Shown: positions 11,965-41,300 of the stretch, piece after piece
Numbering within the stretch: the stretch's first letter is position 1
Layout of the letters: each line of letters starts with the position of its first letter
Assembly: GCF_037975245.1 (NCBI RefSeq)
Contig: NC_092579.1
Coordinates: 18,287,678-18,351,677 of the forward strand
DNA: 64,000 nucleotides
Direction of reading: 5' to 3'
Source: Apostichopus japonicus
Taxonomy: Eukaryota; Echinodermata; Holothuroidea; Aspidochirotida; Stichopodidae
The notes under the pieces: model-generated
What the model saw: only the letters and a program-made list of their open reading frames with translations
Databases searched by the model: none
What the model was told of the DNA's origin: nothing
Program-made: the position numbers and the translations under genes

Positions 11965-14700
11965 TTATAGTTCAATTTGTACAAGTTGTCTCAAATACTG
12001 CTCTTTTTCAACTCACTGGATATGATTTTCACCATAAAGATCGAAAAGACAAAAGAGGTGGCGGAGTTGCGATTTATGTTCGCAATACCCTAAAATATAG
12101 TGTTTTGACTGATATGGGTTTTGCAATGGCTAATGTACTTGAGTGTATAACAATTAAGGTTTCTGTGCCAAACGAAAAGATTGTTTTGATATCTTGATAA
12201 CCTTGATAACCTGATTCATCTGTTGAAGTATTGTGTGATACTCTTGAGAAACTGTATAGACATAAAAGATGTAATGTTTATCTATATGGAGATTTCAATC
12301 TAAATCTATTGAACTGTGAGCACAGTAATCATGTACATGATTTTTGAATACCTTGTTTAGTTTAAGTATGTTTCCTTTGGTAGACAAACCCACGCGTATC
12401 ACCAGTCAGTCTGCTACATTAATTGATAACATTTACACAAATGTCTTGGGGGCCGAGCATCATTGTGGTATATTAGTTTGTGATGTAAGTGATCATCTCC
12501 CCATTTTTACAATTTGTAGTCATGGATACGATACAAAAAGTCAAGTTCCTGACAATGGTTGTATCTACATAAGAAATCAAAGTGATGTAAATATGAATGC
12601 ATTTTATAGCAAACTTAGTCATGAGTCATGGGAACAAGTTTACACTGCAGAAAATGTTAATTCTTCATACAATAATTTTATTGATATTATTACAAGGTGT
12701 TTCAATGAAACTTGTCCTATCAAGTTGGTGTCAGCCAAGAGGAAATTTAAGGACAAGCCATGGATGACCAAAGGGCTGAAAAATGCTTATAAGAAGAAAA
12801 AAGTGCTTTATATAAGATTCTTAAAGAAAAGAACAAGTGAGTCTGAACTGAGGTACAAAGGTTATAAAAATAGGTTAAATTCAGTCTTAAGATTCTGTAA
12901 AAGGGAGTATTATTCAGAGCTTATAAATAAGCATAGTGATAATTTGAAAGAGACATGGAAAGTGTTGAACAGTATAATCAACAGAAATTGTGGAAATAAA
13001 AGTAGCTATCCTGATACTTTTGTTGAAAATGATAAAGAGGTAACAGGTGAGGCCATTGCTGATAGGTTCAATCATTTCTTTACAAGTATAGGAACAAACC
13101 TAGCAGCTCAAATCCCTAATAAAGATGGGTCTATTTTTGATTATCTTAAAAATCACAATATGAATTCTATGTGCTTAGCAGATACAGACACTTTAGAAGT
13201 GCTACAAGTTGTGAGTAATTTTTCTAGTAAGACATCTGTTGATTGTAGTAACATGAGTATGTTAGTTACAAAAGATATTATATTGTATGTAGTTGAACCT
13301 TTAACATTTATTTGCAATATGTCTTTTGCCAGTGGTATCTTTCCAGATGCAATGAAAGTTGCTAAAGTCATTCCAATCTATAAAACTGGAGATAAGAACA
13401 CTTTCAATAATTATAGACCTATTTCACTGCTTCCACAGATTTCAAAAATTCTTGTAAAGTTGTTTGATGTAAGGTTGGATGATTTCATTGCTAAGCATAA
13501 TATTCTCTCTGAGAACCAATATGGTTTCAGGTCCGGTAGGTCCGCTAATATGGCAATACTTGAGCTTGTTGAAAAAATTACATCTTCTTTAGACCATAAG
13601 AAAGCAGCCGTTGGGGTATTTATAGATTTAAAAAAAAGCATTCGATACTATTGATCATAATATCTTACTTAAAAAATTAAATCATTATGGTTGTCGTGGT
13701 ATTGTCCAAAATTGGCTCTCAAGCTATTTATCAAACCGGAATCAGTATGTTCAAGTTAACAATAAAAAGTCTGGTTTATGTAATGTATTGTGTGGGGTTC
13801 CGCAAGGATCAATCCTTGGACCTAAACTTTTCATTTTGTGCTTGAATGATATTTACAATGTTACCAATATATTGAATTTCATTTTTTTGCAGATGACACA
13901 AACATATTCTGCAGTCATAGTGACATCAAAACATTATGTAATTTGGTCAGTACCGAACTTAAGAAGTTAAGCAGATGGTTTGCCCTTAATAAATTATCAT
14001 TGAATGTAAACAAAACAAATGATATGATTTTCTCCAACCACCATACCACATGTAACAATGTCAACATTACTATAGATGGTTTAGAAATTGACCAAGTTAA
14101 CTGTGTCAAGTTTCTTGGTGTGTTCCTTGACTAAACTCTCCTGGAAAGATCACATTTCCCATATTTCAAGTAAACTTTCCAAAAGTATTGGTGCTATTTA
14201 CAAAGCTAGTCATGTTCTTAATACACATGCTCTGTATTCTTTATATTGTGCTATTTTCCTTCCTTATTTGAATTATTGTGTGGAAGCATGGGGTAACACT
14301 TACAAAACCAATGTACATCCAATATTTTTAAAACAGAAAAAGGTTATTCGTATTGTCTGTAAGGCTAAATTTTTGGACCATACTTCCCCACTATTTCATA
14401 AGTTACGAGCACTTACGTTTTTTGATCTTATTGATTTCAATACAAGTATTTTCATGTATAAAGCTTTTCATAATAGTCTGCCATCAACTTTGCAAAGCTA
14501 TTTTGTACTTAGTAACAATAAGAGATTTTATGGCAATTTTTATTTGAATTATGCAAGAACAAAGAAAAACAATTTTCTATCTCCTTCTCTGGTGTTAAAA
14601 TTTGGAATTCATTTGATAAAACCATTAAATCTGCTGTTACATTAAGTTTGTTTAAAAAAAGACTTAAAAACAATTTCCTGACAGCCTATGATGATGATTG
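11965..14700 (+). pseudogene. LINE endonuclease-reverse transcriptase, frame-broken
   Basis: Endonuclease remnants come first: GGGVAIYVRN near 12,057, GDFN near 12,290, LIDNIYTN near 12,420 and SDHLPIF near 12,490. The reverse transcriptase follows: YRPISLLP near 13,410, QYGFRSGRS near 13,518, the FIDL motif near 13,618, [10 protein letters not shown] near 13,796 and the catalytic FADD near 13,887. The C-terminal part is at 14,130-14,640. The reading frame changes several times, including at an A8 run (13,628) and a T7 run (about 13,881), and breaks near 12,197 and 14,130. FADD is present but out of frame with the upstream motif. Such an element would be immobile as read, although homopolymer assembly errors cannot be excluded. 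Confidence 0.85.
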
Positions 14701-17239: not shown

Positions 17240-17625
17240 GGGATATATTTGCTGATATAATGTCCATACGAATTAAAATGATTACCGGTATTCATTCTAT
17301 TTAATACCGGCATTAATTCTCAGCCAATGACCATGTAGCGTTATATGCCGGTATTAAATATAATTAATACGGACATTAAATACAATTAATACGGGCGTTA
17401 TATAGAATTAATAGCGGCATGAAATAGAATAAATACCGGCAAAAAATAGACCAATCACATTACCGAATTTTGAAGCTGTTATCATGCTCTGAGCTAGTGG
17501 TAATCCCTCTTGCTGTAGCGTGAAAGCAGCGTAGTAATTTCTGCTGTATGAACAGGGGGTGGGAGCCGGAGGCCTGTGGGGACACGTGCTCCCCTCCATT
17601 TCCCCCCAAAATAGCAAATGTGCCC

Positions 17626-17750
17626 TTAAGTGATTTGGCCGGTGTGTATCGGTTTATAGCATAACGAGTGGTAGTCGTGGAATGAGATAGTGCCCCTCTG
17701 ATTTTGTGCCCCCCCCCCACTTTTTGGAAGCTTCCTCCCCCTGTGTAGAA
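17626..17750 (+). repeat. Diverged copy of the 45-bp-satellite spacer start
   Basis: GGCCGGTGTGTATCGGTTTA, TAGCATAACGAGT, CTCTGATTTTGTG and CTTTTTGGAAGC match 22,203-22,300 in the same order and orientation. The right-hand part (TCTGATGTTGTG, CCTTTTGGAAGC) also matches every spacer between the 45-bp arrays. This shows the spacer contains part of an older dispersed element. Confidence 0.75.
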
Positions 17751-17841
17751 TGCAAAGTACAACGCAATGGCACGCATTACAAAGTACAATATCTGCATGA
17801 ATTTCGTCGAGAAGCGAATGATACTTGTAGGTTATTGACAA

Positions 17842-18072
17842 ATGTTGACTCCCACTCCCACACAATCCGATGTTTTACCAGTTCGCAATGCTTTGAACCA
17901 GTTTGTTAATCTTCGAAGAACATTACGCTATGCAAAGCTTGGAAGACTCCTGAATGAAGACAAGTACAATTTCGCATCAGTGTCTCTGGATGAACTAACG
18001 GGGGAAGTTTCACGCCCTGCACAAAGCTGGAAACTTGTTAATATCATTGCAAATTACACGTTGCGCAACTAA
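17842..18072 (+). CDS. Unrecognised short ORF, possible exon or element fragment
   Basis: A 76-codon open frame lies between the inverted subrepeat arrays. From codon 10 on, its composition looks protein-like: mixed hydrophobic and charged residues, with RNALNQFVNLRRTLRYAKLG and DELTGEVSRPAQSW. I recognise no family. It stops just before the right-hand inverted array. It could be a captured gene fragment inside a transposable element, or chance. Confidence 0.2.
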   Translation: MLTPTPTQSDVLPVRNALNQFVNLRRTLRYAKLGRLLNEDKYNFASVSLDELTGEVSRPAQSWKLVNIIANYTLRN

Positions 18073-18220
18073 AGTTGCAGTGCCAACTAAACAAATATGG
18101 TCTTTTTAATGCCCGTATTAATTCTATGTAATACCCGTAGTAATTCTATTTAATGCCCGTATTAATTCTAATTAATACCCGTATTAATTATATTTCATGC
18201 CCGTATTAATTCAATTTATT

Positions 18221-19480: not shown

Positions 19481-20335
19481 TCAGTAAAGTTTTTCCCTGC
19501 CAACATCGTTGAGTGGCGAGTAATAATTAAGGTCCATCAAATAATCAAGAGGAATTTGACGGCTCTTTTTAAGGGCCATCAAATAATCAAGAGAAATTTG
19601 ACGGCTCTTTTTAAAGGCCATCAAATAATTATATTCAAGTCTTTGCGTTAGCACAACCAGGGAGTTGTTATGGAACTCCATCGTACAACTGCCATATATA
19701 CTGTACACAAATCAAGCTTGGTGTTGGATTACGTATTGGTCAATGACGTTGGTAGCGTTCAAATATTAATATTATGGGCGAGGTTAATTGGGATCCCAAC
19801 GGAAAATATCTTGGAGAGAAACAAAATTGAAAAGTTGCAAATTTTTCGACTTTTATGCCACCATTTGAAGTAAGATTTAAATCGATAAGCTAGTTATGTA
19901 TGTCGTTATGGCATAGTGGAGTCAGTGAGGTTGAGAAATATCATAGAAAAGGACGCAAAATGCTGCTTTAAGGGCCATCAAATTTGCTAGAGAAAATTGA
20001 TGGGCCTTTAAAAGGAACCGTTGAATTCATTGCTTTTATTCAACGGACCCTTTTTAAAGCCATCCAATAACAAGAAAGATTTGATTTTAATGTTTCGTCT
20101 TCGTCCAACAAACAATAAATTCAACGGCCTTTTTTACGGGTCATCAAATAGTCCACAGAAACTTGACGGCTCTTTATTAAGAGACATCAAATAATCAAGA
20201 GAAATTTGACGGCTCTTTTTGAGGGCCATCAAATAATCAAGAGAAATTTGACGGCTCTTTTTGAGGGCCTTCAAATAATCAAGAGAAATTTGACGGCTCT
20301 ATTTGAGGGCCATCAAATAATCAAGATAATGGCCA
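19481..20335 (-). repeat. Dispersed palindrome units and segment duplicated at 37.7 kb
   Basis: Contains about three palindrome units at 19,515-19,630 and about five at 20,120-20,335, antisense to the main 45-bp arrays (TTTGACGGCTCTTTTT, GGGCCATCAAATAATCAAG). Between them, about 19,677-19,980 is a unique segment (ATCAAGCTTGGTGTTGGATT, GGCGAGGTTAATTGGGATC) present again at about 37,847-38,155. Near 19,990-20,060 diverged palindromes of the same type read TTGATGGGCCTTTAAAAGG and CAACGGACCCTTTTTAAAG. Confidence 0.85.
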
Positions 20336-22197: not shown

Positions 22198-22880
22198 TGA
22201 TGTGGCCGGTGTGTATCGGTTAATAGCATAACGAGTCGTGGTTGTCGAATGAGAAAATGCCCTTCTGATGTTGTGTCCCCTCCCCACCTTTTGGAAGCAT
22301 CCTACCCCCCTGCTTCAGGCGACCATTTGGAATCCAATTTTGTGGAGAGAGAGAGAGAGAGAGACATAAATCCAACACAAGAAATTCGTTCCACCACTTT
22401 ACAATTCTGTAGTCTTAGGTGGAGGTCTCAAGACCATTACGATTTGCTTAATTTAGTAAGGTTAGAGAACTCCCTGCATGGTTTTAGATGGCAACATCCA
22501 TGGAAATGGGTGTCGGTGCCTGGTATTGTCATTTCAATCCCTATTAATTAAGGTTTCCCGGGTAATAAATTCATTCAAGAAATTATTTTAAAAGTTTATA
22601 ATTAGTTGACTTTTAGTTGACTTCGACCTTTAGTGCAAGTGAAAGTATGATCAAGAAAGATGATGCTACTCCATCGAAGTCATATTTATTCATTTACAAA
22701 GAGCGCCATCTAATTTTACAAACTTATTTAGTACCCCGTTCCCGGTATCCTGTGTTTCTTTCTGTTTACTTTAAGAAAGGTTGAAACAATTGTAACACTG
22801 CATTAATTTGCTAAACATTGCGCAAAAGACTTTCGGTGAAACAATAAGGAAGCTGACATATTAGCAAAATTAGACAAATT
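22198..22880 (+). repeat. Spacer 1 of the 45-bp satellite domain, variant left end
   Basis: About 680 bp. Its left end (GGCCGGTGTGTATCGGTTAA) differs from all other spacers and instead matches 17,626-17,750. From TCTGATGTTGTG onward it is the common spacer: a (GA)n tract near 22,346, GGTGGAGGTCTCAAGACC, GGTGTCGGTGCCTGG and TTTAAGAAAGGTTG. It leads into array 1. Confidence 0.88.
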
Positions 22881-23175
22881 TATTTCTCTTGATTATTTGA
22901 TGGCCCTTAAAAGAGCCGTCAAATTTATTTCTCCTGATTATTTGATGGCCCTTAAAAGAGCCGTCAAATTTACTTCTCTTGATTATTTGATGGCCCCTAA
23001 AAGAGCCGTCAAATTTACTTCTCTTGATTATTTGATGGCCCCTAAAAGAGCCGTCAAATTTACTTCTCTGGATTATTTGATGGCCTCTAAAAGAGCCGTC
23101 AAATTTATTTCTCTGGATTATTTGATGGCCCCTAAAAGAGCCGTCAAATTTATTTCTCTTGATTATTTGATGACT
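22881..23175 (+). repeat. 45-bp palindromic satellite, array 1 (6-7 units)
   Basis: Unit of 45 bp, a multiple of three, reading MALKRAVKFTSLDYL-like on the plus strand. Each unit holds a 28-bp quasi-palindrome, with arms TTTGATGGCCCTT and AAGAGCCGTCAAA, and a 17-bp spacer such as TTTACTTCTCTTGATTA that overlaps the arms. The last unit ends GATGACTTATTAGC, an edge shared by arrays 2 to 6. Confidence 0.95.
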
Positions 23176-23880
23176 TATTAGCGTCCTGGTTGGCTAAAAT
23201 GGGTTTCTGTATCAATCACTTTCAGAATCATCTCTTTGAAATATCAAACCTGATTGAGTTTCAAAATGCCCCTCTGATGTTGTGTCCCCTCCCCACCTTT
23301 TGGAAGCATCCTACCCCCCTGCTTCAGGCGACCATTTGGAATCCAATTTTGTGGAGAGAGAGAGACATAAATCCAACACAAGAAATTCGTTCCATCACTT
23401 TACAATTCTGTAGTCTTAGGTGGAGGTCTCAAGACCATTACGATTTGCTTAATTTAGTAAGATTAGAGAACTCCCTGCATGGTTTTAGATGGCAACATCC
23501 ATGGAAATGGGTGTCGGTGCCTGGTATTGTCATTTCAATCCCTATTAATTAAGGTTTCCCGGGTAATAAATTCATTCAAGAAATTATTTTAAAAGTTTAT
23601 AATTAGTTGACTTTTAGTTGACTTCGACCTTTAGTGCAAGTGAAAGTATGATCAAGAAAGATGATGCTACTCCATCGAAGTCATATTTATTCATTTACAA
23701 AGAGCGCCATCTAATTTTACAAACTTATTTAGTACCCCGTTCCCGGTATCCTGTGTTTCTTTCTGTTTACTTTAAGAAAGGTTGAAACAATTGTAACACT
23801 GCATTAACTTGCTAAACATTGCGCAAAAGACTTTCGGTGAAACAATAAGGAAGCTGACATATTAGCAAAATTAGACAAAT
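23176..23880 (+). repeat. Spacer 2
   Basis: About 700 bp, full common spacer: a left part with TTCCTGGTTGGC-like sequence and AATCACTTTCAGAATCATC, then the segment shared with spacer 1. The (GA)n tract is short here. Short open frames at the left end are conserved only because the DNA is nearly identical. Confidence 0.92.
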
Positions 23881-24809
23881 TTATTTCTCCTGATTGATTG
23901 ATGGCCCTTAAAAGAGCCGTCAAATTTATTTCTCCTGATTATTTGATGGCCCTTAAAAGAGCCGTCAAATTTACTTCTCTTGATTATTTGATGATGGCCC
24001 TTAAAAGAGCCGTCAAATTTACTTCTCTTGATTATTTGATGGCCCCTAAAAGAGCCGTCAAATTTATTTCTCTGGATTATTTGATGGCCCTTAAAAGAGC
24101 CGTCAAATTTATTTCTCTTGATTATTTGATGGCCCTTAAAAGAGCCGTCAAATTTACTTCTCTTGACTATTTGATGGCCCTTAAAAGAGCCGTCAAATTT
24201 ATTTCTCTTGATTATTTGATGGCCCTTAAAAGAGCCGTCAAATTTACTTCTCTTGACTATTTGATGGCCCTTAAAAGAGCCGTCAAATTTATTTCTCTTT
24301 ATTATTTGATGGCCCTTAAAAGAGCCGTCAAATTTACTTCTCTTGATTATTTGATGGCCCCTAAAAGAGCCGTCAAATTTACTTCTCTTGATTATTTGAT
24401 GGCCCTTAAAAGAGCCGTCAAATTTATTTCTCCTGAAAATTTGATGGCCCTTAAAAGAGCCGTCAAATTTATTTCTCTTGATTATTTGATGGCCCTAAAA
24501 AGAGCCGTCAAATTTACTTCTCTTGATTATTTGATGGCCCTTAAAAGAGCCGTCAAATTTATTTCCCTTGATTATTTGATGGCCCTTAAAAGAGCCGTCA
24601 AATTTACTTCTCTTGATTATTTGATGGCCCTTAAAAGAGCCGTCAAATTTATTTCTCTTGATTATTTGATGGCCCCTAAAAGAGCCGTCAAATTTACTTC
24701 TCAGGATTACTTGATGGCCCCTAAAAGAGCCGTCAATATTATTTCTCTTGATTATTTGATGGCCCCTAAAAGAGCCGTCAAATTTATTTCTCTTGATTAT
24801 TTGATGACT
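23881..24809 (+). repeat. 45-bp palindromic satellite, array 2 (about 20 units)
   Basis: About 930 bp continuously open in one plus-strand frame (305 codons). Unit variants alternate at two main sites: CCCTT/CCCCT in the palindrome and ACT/ATT in the spacer. Both are second-codon-position changes in the plus frame. A 3-bp insertion (TGATGATGGCC) at about 23,990 and a GAAAATTTGATGG variant at about 24,436 are present. Confidence 0.95.
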
Positions 24810-25514
24810 TATTAGCTTCCTGGTTGGCTAAAATGGGTTTCTGTATCAATCACTTTGAGAATCATCTCTTTGAAATATTAAACCTGATTGAGTTTCAAAA
24901 TGCCCTTCTGATGTTGTGTCCCCTCCCCACCTTTTGGAAGCATCCTACCCCCCTGCTTCAGGCGACCATTTGGAATCCAATTTTGTGGAGAGAGAGAGAG
25001 ACATAAATCCAACACAAGAAATTCGTTCCACCACTTTACAATTCTGTAGTCTTAGGTGGAGGTCTCAAGACCATTACGATTTGCTTAATTTAGTAAGATA
25101 AGAGAACTCCCTGCATGGTTTTAGATGGCAACATCCATGGAAATGGGTGTCGGTGCCTGGTATTGTCATTTCAATCCCTATTAATTAAGGTTTCCCGGGT
25201 AATAAATTCATTCAAGAAATTATTTTAAAAGTTTATAATTAGTTGACTTTTAGTTGACTTCGACTTTTAGTGCAAGTGAAAGTGTGATCAAGAAAGATGA
25301 TGCTAATCCATCGAAGTCATATTTATTCATTTACAAAGAGCGCCATCTAATTTTACAAACTTATTTAGTACCCCGTTCCCGGTATCCTGTGTTTCTTTCT
25401 GTTTGCTTTAAGAAAGGTTGGAACAATTGTAACACTGCATTAACTTGCTAAACATTGCGCAAAAGACTTTCGATGAAACAATAAGGAAGCTGACATATTA
25501 GCAAAATTAGACAA
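24810..25514 (+). repeat. Spacer 3
   Basis: Common spacer of about 705 bp. The GTGTGATCAAGAAAG and GCTAATCCATCG variants separate spacers 3, 4, 5 and 7 from spacers 1 and 2, which read GTATGATC and GCTACTCC. So the spacers form two sequence groups. Confidence 0.92.
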
Positions 25515-26152
25515 ATTTATTTCTCTTGATTATTTGATGGCCCTTAAAAGAGATGTCAAATTTACTTCTCTTGATTATTTGATGGCCCTTAAAAGAGCCG
25601 TCAAATTTACTTCTCTTGATTATTTGATGGCCCCTAAAAGAGCCGTCAAATTTACTTCCCCTGATTATTTGATGGCCCTTAAAAGAGCCGTCAAATTTAC
25701 TTCTCTGGACTATTTGATGGCCCTTAAAAGAGCCGTCTTTTGATGGCCCTTAAAAGAGCCGTCAAATTTACTTCTCTTGATTATTTGATGGCCCCTAAAA
25801 GAGCCGTCAAATTTACTTCTCTTGATTATTTGATGGCCCCTAAAAGAGCCGTCTAATTTACTTTTCTTGATTATTTGATGGCCCCTAAAAGAGCCGTCAA
25901 ATTTACTTCTCTTGATTATTTGATGGCCCCTAAAAGAGCCGTCTAATTTACTTCTCTTGATTATTTGATGGCCCCTAAAAGAGCCGTCAAATTTACTTCT
26001 CTTGATTATTTGATGGCCCCTAAAAGAGCCGTCAAATTTACTTCTCAGGATTATTTGATGGCCCTTAAAAGAGCCGTCAATATTATTTCTCTTGATTATT
26101 TGATGGCCCCTAAAAGAGCCGTCAAATTTATTTCTCTTGATTATTTGATGAC
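25515..26152 (+). repeat. 45-bp palindromic satellite, array 3 (about 14 units)
   Basis: Starts with the GAGATGTCAAATT variant unit, also the first unit of array 4. At about 25,737 two units are fused (GCCGTCTTTTGATGG) with the intervening spacer deleted. Units ending GCCGTCTAATTTAC bring in-frame stops, so the open frame is not maintained. Confidence 0.94.
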
Positions 26153-26874
26153 TTATTAGCTTCCTGGTTGGCTAAAATGGGATTTTGTATCAATCACTTT
26201 CAGAATCATCTCTTTGAAATATTAAACCTGATTGAGTTTCAAAATGCCCTTCTGATGTTGTGTCCCCTCCCCACCTTTTGGAAGCATCCTACCCCCCCCC
26301 CCCTGCTTCAGGCGACCATTTGGAATCCAATTTTGTGGAGAGAGAGAGAGAGAGAGAGAGACATAAATCCAACACAAGAAATTCGTTCCATCACTTTACA
26401 ATTCTGTAGTCTTAGGTGGAGGTCTCAAGACCATTACGATTTGCTTAATTTAGTAAGATAAGAGAACTCCCTGCATGGTTTTAGATGGCAACATCCATGG
26501 AAATGGGTGTCGGTGCCTGGTATTGTCATTTCAATCCCTATTAATTAAGGTTTCCCGGGTAATAAATTCATTCAAGAAATTATTTTAAAAGTTTATAATT
26601 AGTTGACTTTTAGTTGACTTCGACTTTTAGTGCAAGTGAAAGTGTGATCAAGAAAGATGATGCTAATCCATCGAAGTCATATTTATTCATTTACAAAGAG
26701 CGCCATCTAATTTTACAAACTTATTTAGTACCCCGTTCCCGGTATCCTGTGTTTCTTTCTGTTTGCTTTAAGAAAGGTTGGAACAATTGTAACACTGCAT
26801 TAACTTGCTAAACATTGCGCAAAAGACTTTCGATGAAACAATAAGGAAGCTGACATATTAGCAAAATTAGACAA
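26153..26874 (+). repeat. Spacer 4, expanded GA and C tracts
   Basis: Common spacer with the longest microsatellites of the set: about 11 GA repeats near 26,340 and a C run near 26,292. Otherwise it is nearly identical to spacer 3. Confidence 0.92.
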
Positions 26875-29043
26875 ATTTATTTCTCTTGATTATTTGATGG
26901 CCCTTAAAAGAGATGTCAAATTTACTTCTCTTGATTATTTGATGGCCCTTAAAAGAGCCGTCAAATTTACTTCTCTTGATTATTTGATGGCCCCTAAAAG
27001 AGCCGTCAAATTTACTTCCCCTGATTATTTGATGGCCCTTAAAAGAGCCGTCAAATTTACTTCTCTTGATTATTTGATGGCCCCTAAAAGAGCCGTCAAA
27101 TTTACTTCTCTGGACTATTTGATGGCCCCTAAAAGAGCCGTCAAATTTACTTCTCTTGATTATTTGATGGCTCCTAAAAGAGCCGTCAAATTTACTTCTC
27201 TTGATTATTTGATGGCCCTTAAAAGAGCCGTCAAATTTACTTCTCTTGATTATTTGATGGCCCCTAAAAGAGCCGTCTAACTTACTTCTCTTGATTATTT
27301 GACGGCCCTTAAAAGAGCCGTCAAATTTACTTCTCTTGATTATTTGATTGCCCCTAAAAGAGCCGTCAAATTTATTTCTCTTGATTATTTGATGGCCCTT
27401 AAAAGAGCCGTCAAATTTACTTCTCTTGATTATTTGATTGCCCCTAAAAGAGCCGTCAAATTTACTTCTCTTGATTATTTGATGGCCCCTAAAAGAGCCG
27501 TCAATATTATTTCTCTTGATTACTTGATGGCCCTTAAAAGAGCCGTCAAATTTACTTCTCTTGACTATTTGATGGCCCATAAAAGAGCCGTCAAATTTAT
27601 TTCTCTTGATTATTTGATGGCCCTTAAAAGAGCCGTCAAATTTACTTCTCTTGATTATTTGATGGCGCTTAAAAGAGCCGTCTAATTTACTTCCCTTGAT
27701 TATTTGATGACCCTTAAAAGAGCCGTCAACTTTACTTCTCTTGATTATTTGATGGTCCTTAAAAGAGCCGTCAAATTTACTTCTCTTGATTATTTGATGG
27801 CCCCTAAAAGAGCCGTCAAATTTACTTCTCTTGATTATTTGATGGCCCCTAAAAGAGCCGTCAATATTATTTCTCTTGATTATTTGATGGCCCCTAAATG
27901 GGCCGTCAAATTTACTTCCCCTGATTATTTGATGGCACCTAAAAGAGCCGTCAAATTTACTTCTCTGGACTATTTGATGGCCCTTAAAAGAGCCGTCATT
28001 TGATGGCCCTTAAAAGAGCCGCCAAATTTACTTCTCTTGATTATTTGATGGCCCTTAAAAGAGCCGTCAAATTTACTTCTCTTGATTATTTGATGGCCCT
28101 TAAAAGAGCCGTCAAATTTATTTCTCTTGATTATCTGATGGCCCTTAAAAGAGCCGTCAAATTTACTTCTCTTGATTATTTGATGGCCCCTAAAAGAGCC
28201 GTCAAATTTACTTCTCTTGATTATTTGATGGCCACTAAAAGAGCCGTCAAATTTACTTCTCTTGACTATTTGATGGCCCTTAAAAGAGCCGTCTAATTTA
28301 CTTCTCTTGACTATTTGATGGCCCCTAAAAGAGCCGTCAAATTTACTTCTCTTGATTTTTTGATGGCCCCTAAAAGAGCCGTCAAATTTACTTCTCTTGA
28401 TTATTTGATGGCCCTTAAAAGAGCCGTCTAATTTACTTCTCTTGATTATTTGATGGCCCTTAAAAGAGCCGTCAAATTTACTTCTCTTGATTATTTGATG
28501 GCCCCTAAAAGAGCCGTCAAATTTACTTCTCTTGATTATTTGATGGCCCTTAAAAGAGCCGTCAAATTTACTTCTCTTGATTATTTGATGGCCCCTAAAA
28601 GAGCCGTCAATATTATTTCTTTTGATTATTTGATGGCCCCTAAAAGAGCCGTCAAATTTACTTCTCTGGACTATTTGATGGCCCTTAAAAGAGCCGTCAA
28701 ATTTATTTCTCTTGACTATTTGATGGCCCTTAAAAGAGCCGTCAAATTTACTTCTCTTGATTATTTGATGGCCCCTAAAAGAGCCGTCTAATTTACTTCT
28801 CTTGATTATTTGATGGCCCCTAAAAGAGCCGTCTAATTTACTTCTCTTGATTATTTGATGGCCCCTAAAAGAGCCGTCAAATTTACTTCTCTTGATTATT
28901 TGATGGCCCCTAAAAGAGCCGTCAAATTTACTTCCCTTGATTATTTGATGGCCCTTAAAAGAGCCGTCAAATTTACTTCTCTTGTTTATTTGATGGCCCC
29001 TTAATGAGCCGTCAATATTATTTCTCTTGATTATTTGATGACT
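26875..29043 (+). repeat. 45-bp palindromic satellite, array 4 (about 48 units)
   Basis: The largest array, about 2.17 kb. The minus strand is open for 237 codons (26,867-27,580) while plus-strand frames are also open, so both directions read through. Variants include CCCCTAAATGGGCCGTC near 27,890, a two-unit fusion near 27,997 (GCCGTCATTTGATGG), and the terminal unit CCCCTTAATGAGCC. Stop-containing CTAATTT units recur. Confidence 0.95.
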
Positions 29044-29754
29044 TATTAGCTTCCTGGTTGGCTAAAATGGGTTTCTGTATCAATCACTTTCAGAATCATC
29101 TCTTTGAAATATTAAACCTGATTGAGTTTCAAAATGCCCTTCTGATGTTGTGTCCCCTCCCCACCTTTTGGAAGCATCCTAACCCCCTGCTTCAGGCGAC
29201 CATTTGGAATCCAATTTTGTGGAGAGAGAGAGAGAGAGACATAAATCCAACACAAGAAATTCGTTCCACCACTTTACAATTCTGTAGTCTTAGGTGGAGG
29301 TCTCAAGACCATTACGATTTGCTTAATTTAGTAAGATAAGAGAACTCCCTGCATGGTTTTAGATGGCAACATCCATGGAAATGGGTGTCGGTGCCTGGTA
29401 TTGTCATTTCAATCCCTATTAATTAAGGTTTCCCGGGTAATAAAATCATTCAAGAAATTATTTTAAAAGTTTATAATTAGTTGACTTTTAATTGACTTCG
29501 ACTTTTAGTGCAAGTGAAAGTGTGATCAAGAAAGATGATGCTAATCCATCGAAGTCATATTTATTCATTTACAAAGAGCGACATCTAATTTTACAAACTT
29601 ATTTAGTACCCCGTTCCCGGTATCCTGTGTTTCTTTCTGTTTGCTTTAAGAAAGGTTGAAACAATTGTAACACTGCATTAACTTGCTAAACATTGCGCAA
29701 AAGACTTTCGATGAAACAATAAGGAAGCTGACATATTAGCAAAATTAGACAAAT
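29044..29754 (+). repeat. Spacer 5
   Basis: Common spacer, sharing CCTAACCCCCTGC, AATAAAATCATTC and GAGCGACATC with spacer 7. The two form a subgroup and were probably amplified together. Confidence 0.92.
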
Positions 29755-31083
29755 TTATTTCTCCTGATTATTTGATGGCCCTTAAAAGAGCCGTCAAATT
29801 TACTTCTCTTGATTATTTGATGGCCCTTAAAAGAGCCGTCAAATTTACTTCTCTTGATTATTTGATGGCCCTTAAAAGAGCCGTCAAATTTACTTCTCTT
29901 GATTATTTGATGGCCCCTAAAAGAGCCGTCAATATTATTTCTCTTGACTACTTGATGGCCCTTAAAAGAGCCGTCAAATTTACTTCTCTTGATTATTTGA
30001 TGGCCCTTAAAAGAGCCGTCAAATTTACTTCTCTTGATTATTTGATGGCCCTTAAAAGAGCCGTCAAATTTATTCTCTTGATTATTTGATGGCCCCGAAA
30101 AGAGCCGTCTAATTTACTTCTCTTGATTATTTGATGGCCCTTAAAAGAGCCGTCAAATTTACTTCTCTTGATTATTTGATGGCCCCTAAAAGAGCCGTCA
30201 AATTTACTTCTCTTGACTATTTGATGGCCACTAAAAGAGCCGTCAAATTTACCTCTCTTGACTATTTGATGGCCCCTAAAAGAGCCGTCAAATTTACTTC
30301 TCTTGATTATTTGATGGCCCCTAAAAGAGCCGTCAAATTTACTTCTCTTGATTATTTGATGGCCACTAAAAGAGCCGTCAAATTTACTTCTCTTGACTAT
30401 TTGATGGCCCCTAAAAGAGCCGTCTAATTTACTTCTCTTGACTATTTGATGGCCCTTAAAAGAGCCGTCAAATTTACTTCTCTGGACTATTTGATGGCCC
30501 CTAAAAGAGCCGTCAAATTTACTTCTCTTGATTTTTTGATGGCCCTTAAAAGAGCCGTCAAATTTACTTCTCTTGATTATTTGATGGCCCCTAAAAGAGC
30601 CGTCTAATTTACTTCTCTTGATTATTTGATGGCCCTTAAAAGAGCCGTCAAATTTACTTCTCTTGATTATTTGATGGCCCCTAAAAGAGCCGTCAAATTT
30701 ACTTCTCTTGATTATTTGATGGCCCTTAAAAGAGCCGTCAAATTTACTTCTCTTGATTATTTGACGGCCCCTAAAAGAGCCGTCAATATTATTTCTTTTG
30801 ATTATTTGATGGCCCCTAAAAGAGCCGTCTAATTTACTTCTCTTGATTATTTGATGGCCCCTAAAAGAGCCGTCAAATTTACTTCTCTTGATTATTTGAT
30901 GGCCCCTAAAAGAGCCGTCAAATTTACTTCTCTTGATTATTTGATGGTCCTTAAAAGAGCCGTCAAATTTACTTCTCTTGATTATTTGATGGCCCCTAAA
31001 AGAGCCGTCAAATTTACTTCTCTTGATTATTTGATGGCCCCTTAATGAGCCGTCAATATTATTTCTCTTGATTATTTGATGAC
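29755..31083 (+). repeat. 45-bp palindromic satellite, array 5 (about 29 units)
   Basis: About 1.33 kb. One unit near 30,070 lacks one base (TTTATTCTCTTG), shifting the frame. The stretch near 30,620-30,800 repeats the unit order seen in array 4 near 28,440-28,630 (ending TCAATATTATTTCTTTTG), a sign of block-wise amplification. It ends with the CCCCTTAATGAGCC edge unit. Confidence 0.94.
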
Positions 31084-31254
31084 TTATTAGCTTCCTGGTT
31101 GGCTAAAATGGGTTTCTGTATCAATCACTTTCAGAATCATCTCTTTGAAATATTAAACCTGATTGAGTTTCAAAATGCCCTTCTGATGTTGTGTCCCCTC
31201 CCCACCTTTTGGAAGCATCCTAACCCCCTGCTTCAGGCGACCATTTGGAATCCA
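31084..31254 (+). repeat. Spacer 6, truncated
   Basis: Only the first ~170 bp of the spacer, broken at CATTTGGAATCCA where satellite sequence (TTATTTCTCTTG) resumes directly. It marks a recombination or deletion joint between spacer and array. Confidence 0.92.
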
Positions 31255-31998
31255 TTATTTCTCTTGATTATTTGATGGCCCCTATATGGGCCGTCAAATT
31301 TACTTCCCCTGATTATTTGATGGCCCCTAAAAGAGCCGTCAAATTTACTTCTCTTGACTATTTGATGGCCCTTAAAAGAGCCGTCTAATTTACTTCTCTT
31401 GATTATTTGATGGCCCTTAAAAGAGCCGTCAAATTTACTTCCCTTGATTATTTGATGGCCCCTAAAAGAGCCGTCAAAGTTACTTCTCTTGATTATTTGA
31501 TGGCCCCTAAAAGAGCCGTCAAATTTACTTCTCTTGATTATTTGATGGCCCTTAAAAGAGCCGTCTAATTTACTTCTCTTGATTATTTGATGGCCCCTAA
31601 AAGAGCCGTCAAATTTACTTCTCTTGATTATTTGATGGCCCCTAAAAGAGCCGTCAAATTTACTTCTCTTGATTATTTGATGGCCCCTAAAAGAGCCGTC
31701 AAATTTACTTCTCTTGATTATTTGATGGCCCCTAAAAGAGCCGTCAAATTTACTTCTCTTGATTATTTGATGGCCCCTAAAAGAGCCGTCAAATTTATTT
31801 CCCCGGATTATTTGATGGCCCTTAAAAGAGCCGTCAAATTTACTTCTCTTGATTATTTGATGGCCCTTAAAAGAGCCGTCAAATTTACTTCTCTTGATTA
31901 TTTGATGGCCCCTAAAAGAGCCGTCAAATTTACTTCTCTTGATTATTTGATGGCCCCTTAATGAGCCGTCAATATTATTTCTCTTGATTATTTGATGA
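31255..31998 (+). repeat. 45-bp palindromic satellite, array 6 (about 16 units)
   Basis: Starts with a CCCCTATATGGGCCGTC unit close to the unusual unit at about 27,890 in array 4, followed by the same CTTCCCCTGATT spacer. Ends with the common CCCCTTAATGAGCC edge unit. Confidence 0.94.
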
Positions 31999-32710
31999 CT
32001 TATTAGCTTCCTGGTTGGCTAAAATGGGTTTCTGTATCAATCACTTTCAGAATCATCTCTTTGAAATATTAAACCTGATTGAGTTTCAAAATGCCCTTCT
32101 GATGTTGTGTCCCCTCCCCACCTTTTGGAAGCATCCTAACCCCCTGCTTCAGGCGACCATTTGGAATCCAATTTTGTGGAGAGAGAGATAGAGAGACATA
32201 AATCCAACACAAGAAATTCGTTCCACCACTTTACAATTCTGTAGTCTTAGGTGGAGGTCTCAAGACCATTACGATTTGCTTAATTTAGTAAGATAAGAGA
32301 ACTCCCTGCATGGTTTTAGATGGCAACATCCATGGAAATGGGTGTCGGTGCCTGGTATTGTCATTTCAATCCCTATTAATTAAGGTTTCCCGGGTAATAA
32401 AATCATTCAAGAAATTATTTTAAAAGTTTATAATTAGTTGACTTTTAATTGACTTCGACTTTTAGTGCAAGTGAAAGTGTGATCAAGAAAGATGATGCTA
32501 ATCCATCGAAGTCATATTTATTCATTTACAAAGAGCGACATCTAATTTTACAAACTTATTTAGTACCCCGTTCCCGGTATCCTGTGTTTCTTTCTGTTTG
32601 CTTTAAGAAAGGTTGAAACAATTGTAACACTGCATTAACTTGCTAAACATTGCGCAAAAGACTTTCGATGAAACAATAAGGAAGCTGACATATTAGCAAA
32701 ATTAGACAAA
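31999..32710 (+). repeat. Spacer 7
   Basis: Common spacer with an interrupted GA tract (GAGAGATAGAGAG) near 32,180. Nearly identical to spacer 5. Confidence 0.92.
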
Positions 32711-33276
32711 TTTATTTCTCCTGATTATTTGATGGCCCTTAAAAGAGCCGTCAAATTTACTTCTCTTGATTATTTGATGGCCCTTAAAAGAGCCGTCAAA
32801 TTTACTTCTCTTGATTATTTGATGGCCCCTAAAAGAGCCGTCAAATTTACTTCTCTTGACTATTTGATGGCCCTTAAAAGAGCCGTCAAATTTACTTCTC
32901 TTGATTAATTGATGGCCCCTAAAAGAGCCGTCAAATTTACTTCTCTTGACTATTTGATGGCCCTTAAAAGAGCCGTCAAATTTACTTCTCTTGATTATTT
33001 GATGGCCCCTAAAAGAGCCGTCAAATTTACTTCTCTTGATTATTTGATGGCCCTTAAAAGAGCCGTCAAATTTACTTCTCTTGGTTATTTGATGGCCCTT
33101 AAAAGAGCCGTCAAATTTACTTCTCTTGATTATTTGATGGCCCCTAAAAGAGCCGTCAAATTTATTTCCCTGGATTATTTGATGGCCCTTAAAAGAGCCG
33201 TCAAATTTACTTCCCTTGATTATTTGATGGCCCTTAAAAGAGCCGTCAAATTTACTTCTCTTGATTATTTGATGGC
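32711..33276 (+). repeat. 45-bp palindromic satellite, array 7 (12-13 units)
   Basis: Last array. It is open for 124 codons in the plus frame from 32,909 and ends GATGGCTTATTAGC rather than GATGACTTATTAGC. Confidence 0.94.
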
Positions 33277-33364
33277 TTATTAGCTTCCTGGTTGGCTAAA
33301 ATGGGTTTCTGTATCAATCACTTTCAGAATCATCTTTTTGAAATATTAAACCTGATTGAGTTTC
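33277..33364 (+). repeat. Spacer 8, truncated; right edge of satellite domain
   Basis: First ~85 bp of the spacer up to GATTGAGTTTCA, then unique sequence (CATGTTAACATTGG). This is the right boundary of the domain, about 200 bp before the receptor-like gene's start codon. Confidence 0.88.
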
Positions 33365-33559
33365 ACATGTTAACATTGGTCATGCATCGTGCTAAGGCTT
33401 TGCTGCTTTGCGTCTCGATGATACGTTTGTAGCATCCGACGAGACAAGAAGTAGCCTCCCACTTTATCCGTGTGTAGCTTTTTTGTAATAGTAGCGTTAA
33501 TTAAGTAGCTTATAAACGAGAATATATAGTGAGTGACCTTATTTATAGAATTCGTCGTG

Positions 33560-36500
33560 ATGGACGATATTGGAAAAATACGATCATCAGGCCTTATAGA
33601 GAAAAGGTCGAAAAAATCATGGCCAGTGATGTTTTGGGTTTTTATGAGGGCTTTGGCTCTGTTCTATCACCGAGCTGTGGTGACAGAGAGGAAATGTCTC
33701 TATTGTCACGTTGATAAAATGACGAGTGCCAGGCATGCAGCGACACGAATGCACGGAATGGACACTCCTCTGGATTTCTACATCTTGGCGTATGAATCCA
33801 GCAGTCCTGCAGCCGAGAGTCGCAGTGATGAGATGAATCATTCCGTGCAGGAACAAGATGGGGAGAGTTGTGACGTATGTCAGACGCTATGGTGGACTTG
33901 CTACCGGGATCCTGTCAAATACACTGAAGGATATCTTGGTATGTTATCAGTTTCTATCAGTTTGGTTTCCCAATAAATGCATTGTGTTATATACGGTTGA
34001 CGTATAAAAATGTCACTTTGAAAGTACGTTAGGTGCAAATAAATAAATAATAAAAAATATATATATATAAAACAATGAGAACACAATTATTTGATGGTTT
34101 TCATGGATTATATTCTTAACCAATTTCATGAACTTACTTTGGCTACTCTTTTGTTACGGGGAGAGGGGGTGGACTATTTTGCCAGACATGCATGGTTTCA
34201 AATCCGTCAGTTTACATAATGTATACCTGTGTCGACGGCAATATCCCTACTGAATGGTCTTACATGCTTACAGTTTGTATTACTGTATGAAAGGCCTCTT
34301 TTTATTTCCAATCTGTATCATCCAGAACATCCTTTCAGTGCATATCGGATTAATGTTGGTTGATGTGATAAAACGTTTAAGAAGTACCTGGTTCTGTTCC
34401 CAGACATGCAGGAAGAGTGTTTTATGTTTCAGAAAGGGACGATGGTTTTAAACGTAGAAGTAAAATATTTCATAATAAGATTAAACTGAGAAGGGGCGGA
34501 TTGGCCTGATGGCTTACCTACTATGTCCGAGACGCAGTCGGGTTTAGTTTCTCCATGCTATTCAATGCCTGCACCGTTTGGATGCGGAGCCTGTCAATAT
34601 CGATTCGCCATTGATAATGAGTGAACTTTCATAATTGAGGGCACGCTGATGATGACCATTCTCATTGCGATCAAAATCTGAATGTGCCAATCATATACTT
34701 AAAATTCGATTTCACATTAAAAAGATCTGATTAAGTTTCTAAGTTTGCTATAGTATAAGTATCATGATTTATCATTTGATTTGCGATACATAATATGCCA
34801 TATTAAAACTTTGCATTATAATTTTTTTTTACAAAATGCTGGTTATTATCGGCCAGGCGGTGTTCACAAATACTTGGTAACAATTGCTGTTAACATAAAG
34901 ATATTATTTATGAACATATTGAAACACAATCTTGTTAATTTAAATTAATACAAATTAAGTAATGGAGGGAACTAATGGTATTGAATCAAAAGATGATTAT
35001 ATGCTAGTAAACAACTACTAGTAGCCTTAATTATCAAGCTTTTGAATACAAAACGTGTCTCACATATGAGATGAGAAATATGTTAAAGACGGGTCAATTG
35101 ATTATGCAGCGTTAATTTTTCTTTTTCTTTTCTTTCGTTTCATTATCATTTTTTTTTTGTGTGTTATATTATAGGGATGAGTAGATGGATTCGAAGGTGG
35201 GATGGCGTTATCTCGATGGGTTGGTTGATTGTTACTATAGCAATTTTCCTTTTTTTATGGCGGAAGCTTCGTTCCACAGTTATTTGGAAAACTAGACCAA
35301 ATCCTGCGTCTTCTTGTCAAACTTTGTATGCTGGTATTATTGTCGACTCATTTCATCTTCGTCCTATGCTCCAAGATCCGTAGTCTCTTCAAGGCCGCCA
35401 CTCCAAGACTTTGTTGGGCAACTACCCTAAATGTAAGATACTTGATCAAGAGAGCTCAGTTCTTGGACATGCCAAGCAGAGGTCAGTATACTGATGATAA
35501 TCCCTTCATTATAGAAAACGGATGAATACATCCTATAGTCATATCGTCATTTCAATTTCACAGTTCCAATAAACCAGTGCCACCTATCAGGCCTTTGCAA
35601 CTGTATTGTTTGTAGATAAATAAATATGACGTACAATCTTTGGCAAGAAACGTGTCACATTTTTACTAACTCTATTGTTATTATCCTAGAAAAGGCCCCC
35701 CCTCCCCCAACTTTACTCTCGGATAACATACCTGCAATTTAGGATATCGAATCTTTGTATTAATTCATGTTTCCTATATACCCTTATGCACATTCCAATA
35801 CTAACTAAAGACAGTTGTTTTGATCGGCAATGGCAATTAACTTGTCTATGCAAATGTGTATTAAAGTTTGTAAGTTTCATTTTCTCGGAATTGATATTCA
35901 TCAAACCAGTTATTCTCTCCGTCTCTTTTCAAGGTTTACCCGGGGCACCGTTTCTTTTGATCTGTGTGGGATGTCCTTTCCTCATAGCACTGTATCGATT
36001 GGTAATATTCCTCTGCATCAGTACCTGTGACGTCAGTGTTTACAGCGTATCACAGTCACTGATCGGTGCCGTCTTCATGGTCAACTGGGGCTTGTTCCTA
36101 TACCTCATCTACTTCGTTAGACATTCTTTCCGATGTCAGTTCAATTTGCTGCTCTCATACATCAAAGATTTCGGGGATGACTTACAGAGATGTAGAGCAA
36201 TGATATTAATGTCGCTGCAGATTTTTCATGTTATTAACAACTCTGTACCCTGTATTTGGCCTTAACTTTCCCCGTGATGGTTATTGCCGTGGTTGCTAAC
36301 CTAACTGTAGATTACGTCATCAATGTGAGTAATTGTCTTGACCAGGAAAGCCAGTTGATTGCGAACCATCTGGCAATTTTATTTTGGTCAGAGATTGGAG
36401 TCGCACTTTTACTATGTTCTATAGCAATGGGTGGACTCAAAGTTCGTTACATCTGGGAAAACTTTGTTGGAAATGTTTTGATTATGAAAACTGACAAATC

Positions 36501-36684
36501 AAGGCTTCTCAGAAAAAAGTTGTTCCAGGAGGCAGAGTATTTGCTCAGGGAATCCAGCCTTCTTTTGACCACTATCGTGTTCTCGGTCACTGGCCTCTAC
36601 ATGGGATTCCATTTTGATAATCAAAATGTTATGATGATGAATAGTTCATGCAATGTAACTTCTGCAAAACTTTCATGTTATTAG
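33560..36684 (+). CDS. Candidate gustatory-receptor-like 7TM protein, three exons, two frame breaks
   Basis: Exons are 33,560-33,938, 35,175-35,481 and 35,934-36,684, about 478 residues. All four splice sites are GT/AG and both junctions are phase 1 with frame kept. The N-terminus is hydrophilic apart from MFWVFMRALALFYHR, which resembles the start of insect-type gustatory receptors and their animal relatives (Grl). Seven hydrophobic spans follow: VISMGWLIVTIAIF, LCMLVLLSTHFIFVLC, FLLICVGCPFLIALY, SLIGAVFMVNWGLFLYLIYF, LTFPVMVIAVVANL, AILFWSEIGVALLLCSIAMG and LLLTTIVFSVTGLYMGF. The frame breaks in exon 2 at a T7 run (35,250-35,256) and in exon 3 between about 36,234 and 36,262. It is a recent pseudogene or has assembly indels. 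Family assignment rests on topology and the N-terminal motif only; the classic TM7 signature was not found. Confidence 0.5.
34493..34590 (+). repeat. Possible tRNA-like SINE fragment in intron 1 of the receptor-like gene
   Basis: GGATTGGCCTGATGGCTTA has an A-box-like TGGCCTGATGG, followed about 35 bp later by GGGTTTAGTTTC, a weak B-box match. No body shared with the other SINEs is seen. Weak call. Confidence 0.25.
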
Positions 36685-37070: not shown

Positions 37071-38340
37071 AGAAATTTGACGGCTCTTTTTAGGGCCATC
37101 AAATAATCAAGAGAAATTTGACGGCTCATTTTGAGGGCCATCAAATAATCAAGGGAAATTTGACGGCTCTTTTGAGGGCCATCAAGTAATCAAGAGAAAT
37201 TTGACGGCTCTTTTTAAGGGCCATCAAATAATCTACGGAGATTTGATGGCTCTATTTAAGGGCCATCAAATAATCTACAGAAATTTTGACGGCCTTTAAA
37301 AGGCACCGATGAATTCGTTGCTTTAATTCGACGGGCCCTTTTCACTGCCATCCAATACCAGAAAAATTTGTGTGTATAGGTTTTTATATAATCTAGAAAG
37401 ATTTCATGGCCCTTAAATGGAGCCGTTGAATTCGTTGCTTAATTTCAAACGACCCTTTTTAGTGCAATTCAATACCAGAAAGATTTGTTTATATGTTTTG
37501 TCTTAGTCTTGCATGCAACGAATTCAACGGCTCTTTATTTGGGACATCAAATAATCATTAGAAATTGGATGGCCCTCAATAGGAGCTGTTGACATTGTCG
37601 CTTTATTCAACGGTCCCTTTTAGTGCCATCCAATAACAATAACAAGTTTTCTATTTTTTGACATGTCCATCGAGTTTTTTAAATATATCAATTACAAAAC
37701 AGCGAACTTAGATATCAGCAAAGTTTTTCCCTGCCAACATCGTTAATCGGCGAGTAATCAAGGATATTTGCAGAGAATGAGAAAAGTATCCAAGACAAAA
37801 TTCCACATTTAAAATTAATCGCATACATTACCCCAAACCCGCTAGCTCCATCGTACAACTACCATATATACTGTACACAAATCAAGCTTGGTGTTGGATT
37901 ACGTATTGGTCAATGACGTTCGTAGTGTTTAAAGATTCATATTATGGGCGAGGTTAATTGGGATCTTAACGGAAAATATCTTGGAGAAAAACAAAATTGA
38001 AAGTTGCAAATTTTTCGACTTTTATGCCACCATTTGAAGTAAGATTTAAATAGATAAGCTTAGTAGTTATGTATGTCGTTATGGCATATTGGAGTCAGTG
38101 AGGTTGAGAAATATCATAGAAGAGGACGCAAAATGCTGCTCTAAGGGCCATCAATTTTGCTAGAAAATTGATGGGCCTTTAAAAGGAACCGTTGAATTCA
38201 TTGCTTTTATTCGACGGACTCTTTTTAATGCCATCCAATAACAAGAAAGATTTGTTTTTACATGTTTCGTCTTCGTCCAACAAACAACGAATTCAAAGGC
38301 CTTTTTACGGGCCATCAAATAGTTCTCAGAAATTTGACAT
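37071..38340 (-). repeat. Dispersed palindrome units and copy of the 19.5-20.2 kb segment
   Basis: About six palindrome units at 37,075-37,290 in the orientation opposite to the big arrays. Diverged palindromes follow at 37,300-37,640 (GAATTCGTTGCTTTAATTCG between arms). Then 37,705-38,340 repeats 19,480-20,170: TTTTTCCCTGCCAACATCG, TCAAGCTTGGTGTTGGATT, GGTTAATTGGGATC. The two copies flank the 45-bp satellite domain and the receptor-like gene in the same orientation, 18 kb apart. Confidence 0.85.
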
Positions 38341-41300
38341 ATTTATCTATGAATATCTGTGGCTTGTAAAAGTTACATAGTTAACTTATTTATGCATATC
38401 TGTGGCTTACAACACTTACATTATGTATTCATCTATGAGTATTTGTGGCTTACAGTACATATATAACAATCATGATTATCCATAAATATGTAGACCAAAA
38501 TGGCATATTGATCTATAAATATCGGTGGCTTAGCATGATTACGAATAGGATAAATATATGAGTATATGTGGCTTACAAAACTAACAGTTCACCTATTTAT
38601 GGATATGTGGCTTACACCACTTTACATTATGGATTTATCTATGGATATCTGTGACTTATAATACATACGAATCATATGTATCTATGAATATGCATTACCT
38701 AAATAACAGATTAAGCTATCAATATCTGTAGCTTAGAATACTAATATAGTTATACTTAATTATAAATTTATGTGGCTTACACCACTTACATTATGGATTT
38801 ATGTATGGATATCTGTGACTTATCATACATACGAATAATGTTTAACCATGAATATGTATGGCCTAAATAACATATTAAACTATCGATATCTGTGGCTAAG
38901 AATACTAACAAAGTTATACTTACTTATGAATATATGTGGCTTACACCACTTTACATTGTTGATTTATCTATGAATATCTGTGACTTAGAATACATACAAA
39001 ACACATTTATTAATGAAATATGTATGGCAAAAAAAAACAGCTTAATCTATCAATATCTGTGGCCTAGAATATTTACATATATAAACTTACTTTTGAATAT
39101 ATGTGGCTTACACCACTTTACATTTTGGATTAATCTATGAATATTTGTGACTTAGAATACATACGGATCATATTTATCTATGAATATATATGGCCTAAAT
39201 AACAGCTTAATCTATTAATATCTGTGGCTTAGAATACTTACATTAATAAACTTACTTATGATTATCTGTGGCTTACACCGCTTTATATTATGGATTAATC
39301 TATGGATATCTGTGACTTACAATATTTAAATATATAAACTTACTTCTAAATACATGTGGCTTACACCACTTTACATTTTGGATTAATCTATGAATATCTG
39401 TGACTTAGAATACATACGGATCATATTTATCTATGAATATATATGGCCTAAAGAACAGCTTAATCTATCATAACTGTGACTTAGAATACTTACATTAATA
39501 AACTTACTTATGAATATCTGTGGCTTACACCACTTAACATTTTGGATTAATCTATGGATATCTGTGACTTAGAATACAAACGGATCATATTTATTTATGA
39601 ATATGTATGGCGTAGATAACAGCTTAATCTATTCATATCTGTGACTTAGAATACTTACATTAATAAACTTACTTATGATTATCTGTGGCTTACACCACTT
39701 TATATTATGGATTAATCTATGGATATCTGTGACTTAGAATATTTAAATATATGAACTTACTTTTGAATATATGTGGCTTACACCACTTTACATTTTGGAT
39801 TAATCTATGAATATCTATGACTTAGAATACATACGGATCATATTTATCTATGAATATATATGGCCTAAAGAACAGCTTAATCTATCAATATCTGTGGCTT
39901 AGAATACTTACATTAATAAACTTACTTATGAATATATGTGGCTTACACCACTTTACATTTTGGATTAAGCTATGGATATCTGTGACTTAGAATATTTAAA
40001 TATATAAACTTACTTTTAAATATATGTGGCTTACACCACTTTACATTTTGGATTAATCTATGAATATCTGTGACTTAGAATACATACGGATCATATTTAT
40101 CTATGAATATATATGGCCTAAAGAACAGCTTAATCTATCAATACCTGTGGCTTAGAATACTTACATGAATAAACTTACTTATGAATATCTGTGGCTTACA
40201 CCACTTTACATTTTGGATTAATCTATGGATATCTGTGACTTAGAATATTTAAATATATAAACTTACTTTTAAATACATGTGGCTTACACCACTTTACATT
40301 TTGGATTAATCTATGAATATCTGTGACTTAGAATACATACGGATCATATTTATCTATGAATATATGTGGCCTAGATAACAGCTTAATCTATCAATATCTG
40401 TGACTTAGAATACTTACATTAATAAACTTACTTATGATTATCTGTGGCTTACACCGCTTTATATTATGGGTTAATCTATGGATATCTGTGACTTAGAATA
40501 TTTAAATATATAAACTTACTTTTAAATACATGTGGCTTACACCACTTTACATTTTGGATTAATCTATTAATATCTGTGACTTAGAATACATACGGATCAT
40601 ATTTATCTATGAATATATATGGCCTAAAGAACAGCTTAATCTATCATATCTGTGGCTTAGAATACTTACATGAATAAACTTACTTATGAATATCTGTGGC
40701 TTACACCACTTTACATTTTGGATTAATCTATGGATATCTGTGACTTAGAATATTTAAATATATAAACTTACTTTTGAATATATGTGGCTTACACCACTTT
40801 ACATTTGGATTAATCTATGAATATCTATGACTTAGAATACATACGGATCATATTTATCTATGAATATATATGGCCTAAAGAACAGCTTAATCTATCAATA
40901 TCTGTGGCTTAGAATACTTACATGAATAAACTTACTTATGAATATATGTGGCTTACACAACTTTACATTTTGGATTAATCTATCAATATCTGTGGCTTAG
41001 AATACTTACACATATAAACTTACTTTTGAATATATGTGGCTTACACCACTTTACATCATGGATTTATCTATGAATATCTGTGACTTAGAATACATACGGA
41101 TTATATTTATCTATGAATATATATGGCCTAAAGAACAGCTTAATCTATCATATCTGTGGCTTAGAATACTTACATGAATAAACTTACTTATGAATATATG
41201 TGGCTTACACAACTTTACATTTTGGATTAATCTATGGATATCTGTGACTTAGAATATTTAAATATATAAACTTACTTTTGAATATATGTGGCTTACACCA

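Follow-up and report, generated by a model that had tools for sequence, protein, structure and literature searches.

The foldback element Tetris of Drosophila virilis is reported to supply the TIR-220 satellite, and its authors assign it to Mutator and give a target site duplication of 8–10 bp (PMC4079207). Satellite-like arrays are likewise described as carried by the Cg_HINE / Helentron elements of the oyster (PMC7492417), and further cases linking mobile elements and satellites are tabulated in a review (PMC9659126). The present analysis concerns a 45-bp satellite built on a 28-bp palindrome in the sea cucumber Apostichopus japonicus, located in a stretch of 64,000 nucleotides (NC_092579.1, positions 18,287,678 to 18,351,677; below, the window, with positions counted from its first letter). 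Tetris with TIR-220 is the closest published precedent found. We regard it as probable that the 45-bp repeat is non-coding and arose as a satellite out of mobile DNA, through insertion, growth of the array and block duplication.

The 45-bp arrays and their relatives

Tandem Repeats Finder (TRF) and a mismatch scan together identified 145 head-to-tail 45-bp units, grouped into seven arrays, from position 22875 to 33273, and so confirmed the count of about 145 and the location given in an earlier note on this DNA. The mismatch scan alone placed the units at 22896–33250. The added length of the seven arrays was 6,672 bp, and the 7.5 kb of array claimed in that note was too high. The step between units was 45 bp throughout, with the exception of four steps of 48, 26, 26 and 44 bp within the arrays, and the 145 units included 66 distinct 45-mers. 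With its head-to-tail arrays of a homogeneous unit, the repeat is a satellite.

The arms of the unit, TTTGATGGCCC(T/C)T and AAGAGCCGTCAAA, were those expected from the note apart from one variable site, left-arm position 12 (T in 71 units, C in 73 and A in one). The 28-bp palindrome, described there as near-perfect, was present in each unit but was imperfect: among the 13 arm positions 12 formed Watson-Crick pairs in one unit, 11 in 53, 10 in 61, 9 in 28 and 8 in two, the imperfect pairs being T-G in 143 and C-A in 140 of the 145 units. The hairpin capacity proposed for the unit held for the single unit 22879–22923, which, folded with DNA parameters, did better than most dinucleotide shuffles on both strands (z −3.4 on the plus strand, equalled by 1 of 200 shuffles; z −2.6 on the minus strand, equalled by 4 of 200). 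The papers found to contain TTTGATGGCCC were unrelated, as judged from their titles and abstract openings. Exact-pattern scans of viral and prokaryote collections gave no match to the 45-bp unit, and no tRNA genes were found.

The arrays are held by a tandem macro-repeat, an addition to the earlier account. Its seven units start at 22255, 23264, 24898, 26242, 29132, 31173 and 32089, and each consists of a spacer of about 615 bp, a 45-bp array and a right flank of 92 bp, the macro-unit at 31173 having only 82 bp of its spacer left. The six full spacers were 613–631 bp long and 97.9–99.8% identical (gaps left out), whereas the mean identity among the inner units of the arrays was 94.5% over all pairs and 94.3% between neighbours. 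Because the spacers are more alike than the inner units, the sequences suggest that the array is older than the block duplication. The first macro-unit starts within another repeat, the second occurrence of which lies at 17626–17741 (116 bp, 86% identity); a plain segmental duplication would allow such a start. This second occurrence is contained in the middle of a foldback-like element at 17345–18218, formed by inverted arrays of a 22-bp unit about 640 bp apart.

The other addition is a 42-bp version of the unit, which was present inside two copies of a dispersed element within the window. The 42-bp units at 19527–19629, 20117–20326 and 37071–37304 were oriented opposite to the 45-bp arrays. 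When the two versions were compared by eye, the 45-bp unit had a spacer longer by AAAT and a loop one base shorter. The cores of the dispersed copies were 93% identical over 497 bp, contained diverged units together with a long hairpin, and out-folded all 200 shuffles (z −5.7 for one and −5.2 for the other). The core of copy 2 occupies 37846–38338 and is followed by a 44-bp satellite (38340–46415, with longer periods of 165 and 253 bp), which starts no more than 2 bp from the end of the match between the copies. In copy 1 the arrays flanking the core share one direction, which bears on the question of terminal inverted repeats made of tandem repeats, as in Foldback or Mutator-type elements, and the palindromic units blur the orientation.

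The array edges carried an 11-bp near-direct repeat, GAC(A/T)TATTAGC, with one mismatch between its members; the left member was identical at all six intact left edges and the right member at six of the seven right edges, the seventh reading GGCTTATTAGC instead of GACTTATTAGC. When the array and one repeat were removed, the remaining sequence formed a palindrome AGGAAGCT...AGCTTCCT, i.e. an 8-bp inverted repeat. Target site duplications of Foldback and Mutator type are about 8–11 bp long. When the left edge of array 3 and the right edge of array 2 were shuffled, in windows picked after seeing the sequence, the direct 11-mer with one mismatch was reached in 18 of 5,000 cases, the 8-bp inverted repeat in 321 of 5,000, and both in 0 of 5,000. 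These shuffles support an insertion, short of proof.

On the reading of a mobile-DNA origin, the source would be a dispersed, hairpin-rich, non-autonomous element with short arrays of the palindromic 42-bp unit. Part of one of these arrays was probably inserted into the palindromic site, which would have produced the 11-bp near-direct repeat as a possible target duplication. We infer that the unit changed from 42 to 45 bp, as the difference seen by eye fits a 4-bp duplication of AAAT in the spacer and the loss of 1 bp from the loop. The array may then have grown by slippage or unequal crossing-over, possibly favoured by the hairpins, before the complete locus would have been duplicated in tandem into seven macro-units. 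The identities of spacers and inner units likewise suggest that array length (6 to 48 units) was altered after the block duplication.

Descent from a mobile element that was small and palindromic, as also proposed in the earlier note, is backed by the dispersed 42-bp relatives and the flanking direct repeat, and several observations weigh against it. The spacer and right flank of the macro-unit had no match to the dispersed core. The dispersed copies differ in layout, and neither their ends nor a target duplication could be fixed. By eye, the insert shows no clear terminal inverted repeats, and one right edge of the seven (23172) has a changed right arm, which breaks the 8-bp inverted repeat there. 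No transposase was detected in the 10 translations scanned with Pfam from the 39 open reading frames listed; a non-autonomous copy need not encode one. We class the repeat as a satellite of mobile-element origin with no superfamily assigned. The window would thereby hold several apparent stages of satellite birth: a dispersed element, short arrays, long arrays of a changed unit, and block duplication.

Table 1. Positions of the arrays, the macro-repeat, the dispersed copies and the flanking direct repeat in the window.
Feature	Positions	Strand	Remarks
45-bp array 1	22875–23171	−	6 units
45-bp array 2	23876–24805	−	20 units; one 48-bp step
45-bp array 3	25512–26149	−	14 units; one 26-bp step
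45-bp array 4	26872–29039	−	48 units; one 26-bp step
45-bp array 5	29750–31080	−	29 units; one 44-bp step
45-bp array 6	31256–31996	−	16 units; abuts truncated spacer directly
45-bp array 7	32707–33273	−	12 units
Tandem macro-repeat	22255–33365		seven head-to-tail units, from spacer identities and anchors at both ends
Left member of flanking direct repeat, array 3	25492–25502	+	GACATATTAGC
Right member of flanking direct repeat, array 3	26150–26160	+	GACTTATTAGC
Mini-array of 42-bp units, dispersed copy 1	19527–19629	+	2.5 copies
Dispersed element copy 1	19676–20326	+	long hairpin and diverged units in the core, followed by five 42-bp units (from 20117)
Dispersed element copy 2	37071–38340	+	42-bp array 37071–37304; diverged units to about 37642

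Resemblance to the histone 3' stem-loop

Among the alternatives the one that survives best, though we think it unlikely, is that the unit descends from, or imitates, the 3' end of histone pre-mRNA. If they were transcribed, the units could then bind the stem-loop protein and the U7 small nuclear ribonucleoprotein (snRNP). Histone ancestry as the ultimate origin would be compatible with a satellite born from mobile DNA. The mammalian downstream element has the core AAAGAG, and a role of the U7 snRNP is described (PMC7026596).

On the minus strand the unit reads GGCTCTTTTAAGGGCC, with a six-pair stem and a UUUA loop, followed by ATCAAATAAT and by the purine run CAAGAGAA at the position of the downstream element. 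The six-pair stem and UUUN loop were intact in 127 of the 145 units, the minus-strand stem being GGCUCU-UUUA-(A/G)GGGCC. Within the arrays the Rfam family RF00032 matched the minus strand at least 66 times, and it had one plus-strand match at 37077 (E up to 3); neighbouring matches of 46 positions would overlap at the 45-bp step, and some units may go unlisted. The best match had 27 bits and an E of 0.002 for the window, the lowest of any Rfam family over the 64 kb. However, no score reached the curated cut-off of 34 bits, which leaves the unit outside the family by score, and other hairpin models also matched the repeat DNA: in one search snR46 and mir-133 likewise reached E below 0.001, and MIR477 and mir-95 each outranked RF00032 once.

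Compared with the Rfam core consensus of 16 letters, the T-variant of the unit agreed at 15, a level reached by 2 of 20,000 palindrome-preserving shuffles; with the longer consensus it agreed at 20 of 24 (0 of 20,000). The C-variant agreed at 14 and 19 letters, respectively (8 and 1 of 20,000); these shuffles test the letters within RF00032, the choice of family being uncorrected. The motif CAAGAAAGA, which we take to be the sea-urchin consensus of the histone downstream element, was found in both dispersed cores, 9 nt after the GCC of a related stem. Under the test applied, these were the only two places in the window with this arrangement on both strands and, being homologous, they were counted as one event. 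The sea-urchin 23-mer matched at 18 or 19 positions in 131 minus-strand places, while the best match outside the repeat family in the window had 15.

Against these points, the good stem-loop occurs in young units and the good downstream element in diverged ones. Searches of the window by tblastn with H4, H3, H2A and H2B gave nothing convincing (best E 0.92), and the units were not found to follow a histone gene. Neither was the stem-loop clearly more conserved than the rest of the unit, as it ranked 28, 23 and 10 of 45 circular shifts in three sets of units. The resemblance may be due to chance. No paper pairing 'satellite DNA' with 'histone stem-loop' was found in the collection of papers searched, and the histone consensus had no exact match in viral and prokaryote collections, which hence gave no positive control.

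A more specific version, which we hold to be somewhat more doubtful still, is that a histone-type 3' processing signal, with stem-loop and downstream element, was captured by a mobile element or evolved within it, and that the element was amplified into a satellite with a possible SLBP/U7 site every 45 bp. If so, the satellite might act as a sponge in the processing of histone mRNA, or the signal could be the route of the element to S-phase, non-polyadenylated transcripts. More generally, a real resemblance to histone 3' ends would mean that repeats can affect the processing of histone mRNA in a new manner.

At a left array edge (22866–22881, minus strand) the sequence AAATTTGTCTAA contains the letters of the U7 Sm site AAUUUGUCU, as quoted in PMC7026596. 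They probably occur there by chance, because no Rfam match to U7 appeared.

Constraint on the palindrome and other alternatives

The palindrome could also be a working structure kept by selection, such as a cruciform, a replication or chromatin element or a transposase binding site, but we find this improbable. The units are regularly spaced and a single unit folds. The earlier note had suggested that the repeat may affect replication, chromatin or breakage, and had proposed a comparison of mutation in the arms with that in the spacer. Such a role was not supported by the variability test, made on 141 units after four out-of-register units were dropped from the 145. The palindrome was not significantly less variable: 25 distinct alternative alleles were present in its 28 positions and 19 in the 17 spacer positions (p 0.53), and singletons numbered 10 in each (p 0.26). 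Among the 127 inner units, with the polymorphic pair 12 left out, 45 changes in arm pairs were one-sided and one was two-sided, and 37 pairs were lost, two gained and seven kept. Changes in the arms were thus almost never compensated. The imperfect T-G and C-A pairs had turned into Watson-Crick pairs in only two and three units, respectively.

The comparison of arms with spacer was less uniform when circular shifts of the unit were ranked by conservation. In the 141 and 127 units the palindrome ranked 10 of 45, but in the 55 distinct inner units it was the third most conserved of the 45 shifts and had the lower minor-allele frequency (0.040 vs 0.079). This rank, a weaker statistic than the previous ones, leans towards the view of the note and is a weak hint of mild constraint. 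A lower variation of the arms had appeared in a first table of all 145 units; it was partly caused by the out-of-register units, and the difference was not significant without these four. The palindrome is inherited, and constraint on it was not demonstrated. These results suggest that a satellite can be strongly palindromic without selection for its palindrome.

That the copy number or the order of the macro-repeat was made by the assembler is very improbable. Long, near-identical spacers are difficult to assemble, but the array lengths differ among the seven macro-units, the spacers differ from each other, and the longest exact sharing found between arrays, that of arrays 3 and 4, was about 190 bp. 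A coding minisatellite with 15-residue repeats can be dismissed almost entirely, as the frames left open on both strands by the 45-bp period (up to 380 codons) are expected for any period divisible by three, units bearing GTCTAA recur, four steps depart from 45 bp, and no gene context was seen.

Elsewhere in the window, a separate satellite of about 195 bp, with two-unit periods of about 394 bp, fills much of the left part (171–10465). Broken reverse transcriptase frames are present at 12341–14645, two of the three with Pfam RVT_1 and by eye of the type without long terminal repeats (non-LTR). An open frame on the minus strand at 54929–55324 gave a weak match to a GIY-YIG domain, presumably as in Penelope-like elements. 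Two hydrophobic-rich open frames at 35690–36684 are possibly exons of a membrane receptor, with no Pfam match up to E 0.1, and at 56645–57022 there is an exon-like short-chain dehydrogenase, the nearest solved chains being those of 17-beta-hydroxysteroid dehydrogenase 1.

Comparison with known systems

The unit shares with the histone 3' UTR (untranslated region) stem-loop RF00032 the stem, the loop, most of the minus-strand letters and the position of the purine run. It differs in scoring under the curated cut-off, in having no histone gene found with it and in standing in tandem in 145 units.

With Cg_HINE / Helentron the locus has in common satellite-like arrays on dispersed elements that also contain a palindrome. 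However, HINEs are built of a left and a right module with inverted repeats in sub-terminal position, and Helitrons are without target duplication, so that the possible target duplication observed here speaks against a Helentron/HINE.

Compared with Tetris, no terminal inverted repeats were established here and the array flanks were unmatched to the element core. The Tetris repeat is also of about 220 bp and lies within long terminal inverted repeats, whereas the repeat studied here is of 42–45 bp and itself palindromic. The likeness lies in the tandem repeats inside a dispersed element that is non-autonomous, in the presence of the same repeats in longer satellite-like arrays, and in short target duplications, which at the present locus are possible ones.

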